Source: Paucibacter sp. DJ2R-2
GTDB lineage: Bacteria; Pseudomonadota; Gammaproteobacteria; Burkholderiales; Burkholderiaceae_C
DNA: 64,000 nucleotides
Direction of reading: 5' to 3'
Assembly: GCF_025717675.1 (NCBI RefSeq)
Contig: NZ_JAJIRT010000005.1
Span: 124,001 to 188,000 of the forward strand
Shown: positions 59,899-62,776 of the stretch, one piece after another
Numbering within the stretch: position 1 is the stretch's first letter
Layout of the letters: every line of letters begins with the position of its first letter
The notes under the pieces: model-generated
Seen by the model: only the letters and a program-made list of their open reading frames with translations
The model's database searches: none
Told to the model about the DNA's origin: nothing
Position numbers and translations under genes: made by a program

Positions 59899-61371
59899 AT
59901 GGCCCGCATGATCTCGCGCGAACCCACTCTTGCCCGCCTGGTAGCAGCCCGCAGCCAATTGCTGGAGCCTTATGGCCTCAGCGAACATGTTCTGAGCAAG
60001 GCCTTGCGCCTGATCACCGAACACCGGGTTGACGATGCCGACCTGTATTTCCAGACCACCCGTGCCGAGGGCTGGAGCCTGGAGGAGGGCATCGTCAAGA
60101 GCGGCTCCTTCAGCATTGACCAGGGCGTGGGCGTGCGCGCCGTCGCCGGCGAGAAGACGGCGTTTGCCTACTCCGACGATATTTCCGAAGCGGCCCTGAT
60201 GGACGCCGCCCTGACCGTGCGCAGCATCGCCGCCGCCGGCCAGAGCCGCCGCGTCAAGGTGCCCAGCGTCGGCACGGTGGCGCCGAGCCGCTCGCTTTAC
60301 GGCGCGGCCGATCCGATTGCCAGCCTGGACAGCACCGAAAAGGTGGCCCTGCTGGAGCGCGCCGAGCGCATGGCCCGAGCCAAGGACCCGCGCGTGGCTC
60401 AGGTCATGGCCGGCCTGGCGGCCGAACATGATGTGGTGCTGGTGGCGCGCGCCGACGGCACTCTGGCCGCCGATGTGCGCCCGCTGGTGCGGCTGTCGGT
60501 GACCGTGATCGCCGAAAGCAATGGTCGGCGTGAGGTCGGCAGCGGCGGTGGTGGCGGGCGTTTCGGCCTGGCCTATTTCACCGACGAGATGATCGCCAGC
60601 TATGTCGACCAGGCGGTCAATGCCGCCCTGACGAATCTGGAATCGCGCCCCGCTCCGGCCGGGGAGATGACCGTGGTGCTGGGCCCGGGCTGGCCGGGCG
60701 TGCTGCTGCACGAGGCCATCGGCCATGGCTTGGAAGGCGACTTCAACCGCAAGGGCTCCAGCGCTTTTGCTGGACGCATCGGCCAGCGCGTCGCCGCCAA
60801 GGGCGTGACGGTGCTGGACGATGGCACCATCCCCGACCGCCGCGGTTCGCTCAATGTCGACGACGAGGGCTGCGCCTCGCAGCGCAATGTGCTGATCGAG
60901 GACGGCATCCTCAAGGGCTATATCCACGACGCCATGAGCGCCCGTCTGACCAAGGTCGCGGCCACCGGCAATGGTCGCCGCGAAAGCTACGCCCATGTGC
61001 CCATGCCGCGCATGACCAACACCTATATGTTGGGCGGCGACAAGGACCCCAAGGAAATCATCGCCAGCATCAAGAAGGGTCTGTACGCCAGCAACTTCGG
61101 TGGCGGCCAGGTGGATATCACATCGGGCAAGTTTGTCTTCTCGGCCAGCGAAGCCTTCTGGGTGGAAAACGGCCAGATCCAGTACCCGGTCAAGGGCGCG
61201 ACCATCATTGGTAACGGTCCAGATGCACTGACCCGCGTCACCATGATCGGCAACGATATGCAGCTGGACACGGGAGTTGGCGTCTGTGGCAAGGAAGGGC
61301 AGAGCGTGCCGGTGGGTGTGGGCCAACCGACCCTGCGCATCGAGGGCATGACGGTGGGCGGAACGGCCTGA
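59899..61371 (+). CDS. tldD: Metalloprotease TldD
   Basis: A 490-residue TldD/PmbA family metalloprotease. The zinc site HEAIGH with H271 and the downstream GLEGD fit the HExxxH pattern of TldD. Other marks are DADLYFQTTRAEGWSLEEG, GVGVRAVAG, FGLAYF and SRLTKVAATGNGRRESYAH-like blocks. TldD with PmbA (TldE) cleaves unstructured peptides and processes some antitoxins and bacteriocins. PmbA is not in this window. The start ATG lies at 59899; MISREP at 59908 is the alternative. Confidence 0.96.
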   Translation: MARMISREPTLARLVAARSQLLEPYGLSEHVLSKALRLITEHRVDDADLYFQTTRAEGWSLEEGIVKSGSFSIDQGVGVRAVAGEKTAFAYSDDISEAALMDAALTVRSIAAAGQSRRVKVPSVGTVAPSRSLYGAADPIASLDSTEKVALLERAERMARAKDPRVAQVMAGLAAEHDVVLVARADGTLAADVRPLVRLSVTVIAESNGRREVGSGGGGGRFGLAYFTDEMIASYVDQAVNAALTNLESRPAPAGEMTVVLGPGWPGVLLHEAIGHGLEGDFNRKGSSAFAGRIGQRVAAKGVTVLDDGTIPDRRGSLNVDDEGCASQRNVLIEDGILKGYIHDAMSARLTKVAATGNGRRESYAHVPMPRMTNTYMLGGDKDPKEIIASIKKGLYASNFGGGQVDITSGKFVFSASEAFWVENGQIQYPVKGATIIGNGPDALTRVTMIGNDMQLDTGVGVCGKEGQSVPVGVGQPTLRIEGMTVGGTA

Positions 61372-61447
61372 GCGCTGTTGTGCGCAGGCCTCAATGCTTG
61401 AATCTGCGCTGAACGCTTGTCAAAAACTGCGTGCTACATTCCAGCTC

Positions 61448-61525
61448 ATGCACTCGCCGAAGACTTATTTCTTTAGCTTTTTTTGGTTCTCCAACCGCAC
61501 CGGCGGCCGAGAGGCGAGAGCGTAA
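61448..61525 (+). CDS. Attenuator leader peptide for DAHP synthase (aromatic-rich)
   Basis: A 25-codon frame reading MHSPKTYFFSFFWFSNRT then GGREARA and a TAA at 61523. Codons 7-14 are Tyr, Phe, Phe, Ser, Phe, Phe, Trp, Phe, so seven of eight are aromatic. It ends 36 bases before a strong terminator, and the DAHP synthase gene follows. An upstream in-frame ATG at 61394 would extend it to 43 codons; neither start has a strong Shine-Dalgarno. Like leader peptides of trp, phe and his operons, it would stall ribosomes when aromatic tRNA is scarce. Confidence 0.72.
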   Translation: MHSPKTYFFSFFWFSNRTGGREARA

Positions 61526-61594
61526 GCAAGCAACACCAAGCACAGCGCACAAATCTCTAGAAACCGCCGGGTCCACCACCCGGCGGTTTTTTTT
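61500..61594 (+). promoter_or_regulatory. Transcription attenuator (antiterminator/terminator switch) before DAHP synthase
   Basis: CCGGCGG at 61500-61506, inside codons 18-20 of the leader peptide, is complementary to CCGCCGG at 61564-61570 in the terminator's 5' arm. A ribosome stalled at the Phe/Trp codons (ending 61489) would leave CCGGCGG free to pair and block the terminator. One reaching the stop codon would cover it and let the terminator form. The logic matches classical attenuation. Confidence 0.7.
61561..61594 (+). terminator. Intrinsic terminator of the attenuator
   Basis: A 12-base perfect stem (AAACCGCCGGGT with ACCCGGCGGTTT) around CCACC, followed by a run of T to 61594. It lies between the leader peptide and the DAHP synthase gene, so it must be read through for expression. 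Confidence 0.95.
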
Positions 61595-61648
61595 CGTCCC
61601 TGGCGCGCTGCCCCGATTTCAAAAGCACGGAAAGTGAGAGTCACGCCC

Positions 61649-62776
61649 ATGAATGCCAAGTCCGCCAAACCGGAAATTCAGGCTGAACGCTGGTACTCGC
61701 AAGAGGACAAGACCAGCGCGACCGATGACGAGCGCATCGTCGACATCACGCCGCTGCCGCCGCCGGAGCATCTGATCCGTTTCTTCCCCATCCGCGGCAC
61801 GCCGATGGAGCAGTTGATCGCCGGCACGCGCCAGAGCATCCGCAAGATCATGCAGCGCAAGGACGACCGCCTGCTGGTCATCATCGGCCCTTGCTCCATC
61901 CACGACCCGGCCGCGGCGCTGGAGTACGCGCGCCGCCTGCTGCTCGAGCGCGAGAAGTACGCCGACACGCTGGAGATCGTGATGCGCGTCTACTTCGAGA
62001 AACCGCGCACCACGGTGGGCTGGAAGGGCTTGATCAACGACCCCTACCTCGACGAGAGCTACCGCATCGACGAGGGCCTGCGCATCGCCCGCCAGTTGCT
62101 GCTGGAGATCAACCGCCTGGGCGTGCCGGCCGGCTCGGAGTTCCTGGATGTGATCTCGCCCCAGTACATCGGCGATCTGATCTCCTGGGGCGCGATCGGC
62201 GCACGCACGACCGAGAGCCAGGTGCACCGCGAGTTGGCCTCAGGTCTGTCCGCTCCGATCGGCTTCAAGAACGGCACGGACGGCAATATCAAGATCGCCA
62301 CCGACGCCATCCAGGCGGCGGCCCGCGGCCACCATTTCCTCTCGGTGCACAAGAACGGCCAGGTCGCCATCGTCGAGACCAAGGGCAACAAGGACTGCCA
62401 CGTGATCCTGCGCGGCGGCAAGGCGCCCAACTATGACGCCGAGAACGTGGCCGCCGCTTGCAAGGACCTGGCCGCCTCCAAGCTGGACACCACGCTGATG
62501 GTGGATTGCTCGCATGCCAACAGCTCCAAGCAGCACCTGCGCCAGCTCGAAGTGGCGCGCGATGTGGCGGCGCAGATTCGCGCTGGCAGCCAGAGCATCT
62601 TCGGCGTGATGGTCGAAAGCCATCTGCACGACGGCGCTCAGAAGTTCACGCCAGGCAAGGACGACGCCCGCAAGCTGGACTACGGCAAGAGCATCACCGA
62701 TGCCTGCCTGGGCTGGGACGATTCGATCGAGGTGCTGGAAGTGCTCAGCGCGGCGGTCAAGGCGGCGCGCACCTGA
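61649..62776 (+). CDS. aroG: 3-deoxy-7-phosphoheptulonate (DAHP) synthase, class I
   Basis: A 375-residue enzyme joining PEP and erythrose 4-phosphate, the first step of the shikimate pathway. Class I AroG/AroF/AroH marks: LLVIIGPCSIHDP, VYFEKPRTTVGWKGLINDP, AGSEFLDVISPQYIGDLISWGAIGARTTESQ, GFKNGTDG and DCSHANSSKQH. The start is the ATG at 61649; a GTG at 61634 is possible. The upstream attenuator with Phe-rich leader suggests control by aromatic tRNA charging in addition to allosteric feedback. The subtype (Phe-, Tyr- or Trp-sensitive) cannot be fixed by eye; the Phe-rich leader points to Phe. Confidence 0.95.
   Translation: MNAKSAKPEIQAERWYSQEDKTSATDDERIVDITPLPPPEHLIRFFPIRGTPMEQLIAGTRQSIRKIMQRKDDRLLVIIGPCSIHDPAAALEYARRLLLEREKYADTLEIVMRVYFEKPRTTVGWKGLINDPYLDESYRIDEGLRIARQLLLEINRLGVPAGSEFLDVISPQYIGDLISWGAIGARTTESQVHRELASGLSAPIGFKNGTDGNIKIATDAIQAAARGHHFLSVHKNGQVAIVETKGNKDCHVILRGGKAPNYDAENVAAACKDLAASKLDTTLMVDCSHANSSKQHLRQLEVARDVAAQIRAGSQSIFGVMVESHLHDGAQKFTPGKDDARKLDYGKSITDACLGWDDSIEVLEVLSAAVKAART

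Follow-up and report, generated by a model that had tools for sequence, protein, structure and literature searches.

The control of DAHP synthase sets the carbon flow into aromatic synthesis, and the textbook control of this enzyme in E. coli consists of the repressors TyrR and TrpR plus feedback. The locus described here raises the question of whether a DAHP synthase gene is controlled by translation of a tiny upstream ORF. In the window, i.e. the whole analysed stretch of 64,000 nucleotides from Paucibacter sp. DJ2R-2, tldD ends at 61371 and is followed, after a gap of 277 bases, by aroG (61649..62776 on the + strand, stop included). The aroG product is a class I 3-deoxy-7-phosphoheptulonate (DAHP) synthase, scoring 529.5 bits against TIGR00034 (cut-off 173.2). 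The gap between the two genes holds a short ORF, a run of aromatic codons, the motif CCGGCGG and a strong hairpin with eight U. A preliminary description of this DNA had taken these parts for a ribosome-stalling attenuator, and our analysis supports that reading: the run is conserved, the pairings shift between groups of species, and all 92 strong matches that we fetched are linked to a DAHP synthase gene. We put the probability that the element is a ribosome-mediated transcription attenuator of aroG at roughly 0.93.

All parts lie on the + strand. The stall codons are the aromatic run Y F F S F F W F (61466..61489), read within the leader peptide ORF MHSPKTYFFSFFWFSNRTGGREARA (61448..61525, stop included), which ends with TAA at 61523-61525. 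The aromatic composition of this peptide is kept in relatives, its sequence is not. The positions reported earlier for the run, the stop (61523), CCGGCGG (61500-61506), CCGCCGG within the terminator (61564-61570) and the adjoining aroG were exact to the base. The ORF has an outer ATG at 61394, but the inner ATG at 61448 is the likelier start because a conserved -10 box lies just before it.

Folding placed segment 1 (UUCUC, 61487..61491) over the last Phe codon, paired with GAGAG at 61509-61513, and the inner stem of hairpin 1:2 (61495..61506) between CCGC at 61495-61498 and GCGG at 61503-61506. Segment 2a, CCGGCGG (61500..61506), is the antiterminator strand that pairs with CCGCCGG at 61564-61570. 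Segment 2b, GAGAGG (61509..61514), pairs either with segment 1 or, through AGAGG at 61510-61514, with UCUCU at 61554..61558, the 3′ side of a second antiterminator helix. This double pairing, with segment 1 and with the pyrimidine patch that precedes the terminator, may be why GAGAGG is conserved. The intrinsic terminator spans 61559..61594, with segments 3 and 4 at 61559-61572 and 61578-61591 and a U-run of eight T at 61587-61594. A stem with a U-run had been described here and is present, but on folding it has 14 pairs including one G-U rather than 12. A simple terminator scan of the window reported zero sites. The leader as a whole (61440-61600) folds far more stably than its shuffles (z = -5.0, 0 of 200). 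When 61499-61578 was folded, with the 3′ terminator arm omitted, both CCGGCGG-CCGCCGG and AGAGG-UCUCU paired, and with the 3′ arm included the terminator won over the antiterminator. The antiterminator of the window is thus predicted to be bipartite, with two helices.

To see how far the aromatic run is conserved, we compared aroG loci of relatives, i.e. the best 80 of at least 593 matching stretches in named genomes, plus the window. Eighty loci could be tested, 79 named ones and the window, L029 being left out as it came without upstream DNA. We counted a locus when the 460 nt upstream contained at least five aromatic codons in eight inside a short ORF. Such a run was found at 62 of the 80 loci. 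In the controls it appeared in 50 of 4000 dinucleotide shuffles (1.25 %), on 2 of the 80 reverse strands and on 2 of the 1082 other interval-strands taken from these loci. The conservation of aromatic runs upstream of aroG orthologues, expected from the preliminary description, was thereby borne out for these best 80 of at least 593 matches. Typical leaders are FYFAYFWFS...GGRE in Comamonadaceae and Sphaerotilaceae, MSAKFYFYFFWHLKPLADREG in Burkholderia relatives and FFTGYFYFSNSNPKAVE in Oxalobacteraceae. Within the same set, 61 of the 62 leader-bearing loci passed a scripted test for hairpin plus U-run (L075 failed). The leader was missing at 19 of the 81 scanned loci (the best 80 and the window), at L029 only through the absent upstream DNA. 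The loci without a leader include Polynucleobacter, where aroG directly follows tldD. In the genome of the window itself, the further class I DAHP synthase copies (L086, L087) have no such leader, showing at most four aromatic codons in eight and in unlike frames, and a fourth, weaker DAHP synthase match (L088) is likewise without one.

The spread of the element was then assessed with a covariance model, R1, trained on 49 elements (the window and 48 named loci). At E <= 0.01 it matched 188 of 399 genomes of the order, many of them weakly and over the terminator alone. At E <= 2.9e-6 there were, among the matches listed, 103 places in 102 genomes, about a quarter of the 399. We fetched 92 of these 103 strong matches, including the window itself (L089) and one locus identical to a training locus (L105), and in all 92 cases a DAHP synthase gene follows. 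Of the 92, 88 have a leader in which five or more of eight codons are aromatic, with one doubtful pick (L172) uncounted. In L173 and L179 the script found no aromatic ORF; L173 has a weak one by eye. In the family of the window 12 genomes match, that of the window included, and none stands among the listed non-matches (191 non-matches are unlisted). Of the 18 weaker matches fetched (E 6.1e-6 to 5.6e-4), 17 were without a DAHP synthase gene and one had it; most of these 18 looked by eye like plain terminators of other genes. Among 369 genomes drawn from the class, 13 matched at E <= 1e-4, including three that belong to the window's family. Ten matches fell outside that family: four strong ones (L199-L202), all with DAHP synthase, L203, where DAHP synthase is absent, and five weak ones. 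One locus, L190 (G253:C1:1711128-1711261), carries an aromatic leader, MITFSAVFNAYFYWYRSSRRLQGASLD, and a hairpin, with no DAHP synthase found there; 89 residues from the frame downstream had no match in Pfam.

For covariation we collected 153 elements, having omitted the second copy of the window (L089) and the spurious ORF pick at L172 beforehand; the start of L201 was not found. Four (L006, L118, L150 and L180) had no usable anchor, which left 149 elements, 146 of them unique. RNAalifold on a MAFFT alignment recovered the terminator only (8 pairs), owing to indels in the 1:2 region and to one-base shifts of GGCGG, and we therefore anchored the elements by GGCGG instead. This anchor was chosen without reference to the terminator and kept 144 of the 146 elements. 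Segments 2 and 3 read CCGGCGG/CCGCCGG in most loci of the Comamonadaceae type, CTGGCGG/CCGCCAG in Burkholderia relatives and, once, AGGCGG/CCGCCT (L076). In permutation tests, which are inflated because the species are related, the partners fitted each other better within than between species for 2:3 (z = -10.1, 0 of 1000), for the halves of hairpin 1:2 in a hairpin-fold test (z = -7.1, 0 of 150) and for the second antiterminator helix (z = -7.0, 0 of 1000, 144 elements). Phylogenetically independent pairs on a protein tree gave about three co-changes of 2:3 with the pairing, none against and six ties (p = 0.25, not significant).

The tests were also run by group, the groups being set by peptide motif and not by taxonomy. 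In the window's own group neither 2:3 (z = -1.1, 136 of 1000) nor 1:2 (z = -0.8, 69 of 300) was significant, and the second antiterminator helix alone was (5 of 1000). The 2:3 test passed in the other three groups (0, 19 and 19 of 1000). The second helix failed in the Burkholderia-type group (z = +0.6). The hairpin-fold test of 1:2 gave z = -6.8 in the large mixed group and was not significant in the three small ones; tested by duplex energy instead, 1:2 had an overall z of -2.7, with the wrong sign in three of the four groups. Hairpin 1:2 is only modestly stabler than shuffles (mean z = -0.90). The covariation of pairings anticipated earlier was thus seen: compensatory changes accompany the recurring 1:2, 2:3 and 3:4 pairings, and 2:3 and 3:4 change in step between groups. 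For 2:3 the independent pairs are only suggestive, and in the window's own group neither 2:3 nor 1:2 reaches significance.

The reading frame of GGCGG offers another line of evidence. The motif occurs in all three frames of the leader (92, 43 and 9 of 144 elements), with 15 frame changes on the tree, and is therefore conserved as RNA and not as peptide. It precedes the leader stop in all 146 elements (the search reached 14 nt past the stop), a position that a ribosome terminating there could shield, and its distance from the last aromatic codon has a median of 14 nt, the commonest values being 14, 12, 11, 15 and 17. A ribosome with a codon in its A site covers about 12 nt beyond the first base of that codon. 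Judged by this geometry, a ribosome stalled on the last aromatic codon would cover segment 1 and free segment 2.

The promoter was examined on the same 146 leaders. In the window 7 nt separate the end of an extended -10 element, TG-C-TACATT (61432..61440; TGCTACATT), from the leader ATG. Of the 146 leaders, 76 have a TANNNT box 5-9 nt upstream of the start, TG-extended in 62, while the same box precedes about 1.5 % of 5444 other ATGs of the same loci (0.22 % with TG). Elsewhere within 64 nt, each 5-nt step shows such a box in 1 to 11 of the 146 leaders. Most leaders of Burkholderia and Oxalobacteraceae have, by eye, an AT-rich box farther upstream. A Shine-Dalgarno-like tetramer was seen in only 11 of the 146. 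The position of the -10 box therefore suggests transcription from the leader ATG itself or from a base or two away. A leaderless start is very probable in this genome, and in about half of the 146 cases the 5′ untranslated region is apparently absent, both judged by promoter position. The aroR-aroF transcript of C. glutamicum is also said to be leaderless. Another candidate leader in the same genome (L204, G000:C29, reverse complement) lies 327 nt upstream of the trpE ATG; its ORF, MFITRKHIKGSHDRGAWPWRCPLAFLR, has two Trp codons (W-P-W), and TGCTACACT ends 10 nt before the ATG of this ORF. It looks like a near-leaderless trp leader with a design similar to that of the aroG leader.

From these parts we infer how the switch could operate, from transcription start to read-through. 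RNA polymerase would start at the leader ATG and a ribosome would load on the leaderless end. With charged Phe-tRNA (and Trp-tRNA) plentiful, the ribosome would reach the stop codon and shield segment 2, hairpin 3:4 would form next to its U-run, and transcription would stop before aroG. With aromatic aminoacyl-tRNA short, it would stall on the run with its front edge over UUCUC, and CCGGCGG-NN-GAGAGG would stay free. The free strand would pair with UCUCU...CCGCCGG into the two-helix antiterminator, the terminator would be blocked and aroG would be transcribed. With segment 1 free and segment 4 absent, the equilibrium fold still favours 2:3 in 127 of 144 elements, and the model therefore requires folding during transcription.

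The preliminary description had proposed that the mixture of codons could integrate all three end products. Phe, Tyr and Trp codons are indeed present, but sensing of all three is doubtful in the window because its only Tyr codon (61466) lies 21 nt 5′ of the final codon of the run. A ribosome on this codon would not cover segment 1, and the Tyr codon is by this geometry probably too far upstream to release the switch, whereas the Phe, Phe, Trp and Phe codons at 61478, 61481, 61484 and 61487 appear in reach and well placed. We consider it probable that the window leader senses Phe and Trp, and rather unlikely that it senses Tyr. Among the last four codons of the run in the 146 unique elements, Phe occurs in 145, Tyr in 117, Trp in 74 and all three in 60, counts that are conditional on a selection made partly by the aromatic run. 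TTT is favoured over TTC in the leaders (mean 64 %, with the leader above its downstream gene in 132 of 146 cases; the genes average 26 %), a preference that may slow decoding or leave the stall region unstructured.

One alternative is that the hairpin is a plain terminator of tldD and the aromatic ORF a chance frame. The hairpin does lie between the two genes, tldD ending at 61371, and tldD is present in 58 of the 89 leader-bearing loci. The other 31 have no tldD in the examined flanking DNA, however, so the terminator is not simply that of tldD; in addition, the promoter box is 3′ of tldD and immediately precedes the leader ATG, and the aromatic run stands at 62 of 80 loci (79 from the best 80 of at least 593 matches, plus the window) against 1.25 % of shuffles. 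The conservation and the tldD-free loci lead us to reject a chance ORF combined with a tldD terminator, an explanation to which we give practically no weight. It is also very improbable that the leader encodes a sequence-specific arrest peptide which, like TnaC, would sense an aromatic amino acid in its free form or some metabolite and would not respond to tRNA charging. The very dense aromatic peptides and the recurrent order F-F-Y-F-W-F would suit an arrest peptide, but the order and identity of the residues vary among F, Y and W, the remaining peptide differs between groups, and GGCGG is retained in different frames, i.e. as RNA.

A further possibility keeps the cis attenuator and adds an action in trans of the terminated leader RNA and peptide. 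The model for it is trpL-trpE(G) of S. meliloti, where the RNA begins with the leader ATG and where trans-acting rnTrpL and peTrpL were shown (PMC7298713). Our leader resembles it in its leaderless ORF, predicted here from promoter position, and in the terminator, and would likewise release a small leaderless mRNA. The S. meliloti leader differs in that it concerns Trp only, targets trpE and belongs to an alphaproteobacterium, with the trans action shown there. The poor conservation of our leader peptide argues against a conserved peptide function, and we find such an addition to the stalling attenuator unlikely.

The ribosome-mediated attenuator has clear precedents. In pheA/pheL and trpE/trpL of enterobacteria, segments 1-4 are arranged so that the stall codons overlap segment 1 and a terminating ribosome masks segment 2; these leaders sense one amino acid each and are led by a Shine-Dalgarno sequence. 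The aroG leader follows the same segment logic, and differs from pheL and trpL in its mixed codons as against a single amino acid, in their Shine-Dalgarno-led start and in the target gene. Both pheL and trpL are also mentioned in PMC11802643. The closest case known to us by target is aroR-aroF of C. glutamicum, where a leader peptide with Phe-Tyr-Phe precedes a DAHP synthase gene (PMC11802643, PMC4046766; also cited, PMC7356990) and transcription rises on Phe limitation (PMC11802643). The two share mixed aromatic codons before a DAHP synthase gene, a likeness drawn from description and not from sequence; C. glutamicum belongs to another phylum, and the excerpts of these papers name three aromatic codons, against mostly 5-8 in eight here, and leave Trp codons unmentioned. 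The uORFC-13-1 motif upstream of aroF in Acholeplasma consists of a predicted uORF with at least one Phe codon and an adjacent terminator and has 24 representatives in Acholeplasma and unknown environmental sequences only (PMC8632094). It resembles our element as a Phe-codon uORF with a terminator before aroF, being a prediction there and likened by description, not by structure. In Shewanella, aroF and aroH were likewise predicted to have regulatory RNAs upstream (PMC2659441), and a Tyr-tRNA attenuator of E. coli aroF was proposed by Camakaris 1980, as cited in PMC2659441 and PMC8632094. RNA-level control before DAHP synthase genes has thus been proposed in Proteobacteria; the Shewanella cases are structure predictions, with no mixed aromatic leader peptide described for either gene in the sections concerned.

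The suspicion that attenuation of a class I DAHP synthase gene might be new is thus not borne out for the kind, which is already known from C. glutamicum aroR-aroF. The literature searched, which did not extend to subscription journals, yielded no account of a betaproteobacterial aroG attenuator, and the main text of PMC2965389 contains neither 'aromatic' nor 'DAHP'. Rfam gave no match at gathering score in the window between 60000 and 64000 (two matches were far below it) and none at 13 loci, and no leader peptide tried had a significant score in NCBIfam or Pfam. What seems new here, going by the sequences, is a large family with mixed codons, about half of it leaderless by promoter position, and with a predicted bipartite antiterminator. 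Control of DAHP synthase through translation of a tiny ORF with mixed codons appears to be in use in many members of the order.

More tentatively, and with the balance slightly against it, the leaders could form a widespread, undescribed type of leaderless attenuator that occurs in Burkholderiales and in some further members of the class, with a mixed Phe/Tyr/Trp run acting as an OR-gate and a two-helix antiterminator working by strand swapping. If this were true, a single ribosome would report each of the three end products where the shikimate pathway begins, and the second antiterminator strand would alternate between two partners, the region of the stall codons and the pyrimidine patch ahead of the terminator. 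The leaders make a natural variant set for asking how three amino acids are reported and which codon positions count, and for probing whether leaderless translation starts fast enough to match the polymerase. The aroG leader also offers a handle for metabolic engineering of aromatic producers among these bacteria.

Two further loci deserve mention. L179 (G320:C2) keeps the terminator before DAHP synthase, its leader being by eye almost without aromatic codons (MNLIHPAPTRFSRPPHPAAGDR); it is possibly a decaying attenuator. L183 (G308:C1, reverse complement) has a Leu-rich leader, MELFIAALLSLLLLSRLKDRAGSRARVKATQR, with a terminator, and about 750 nt downstream a frame starting MSNNRLYIFDTTLRDGEQSPGA that resembles leuA by eye.
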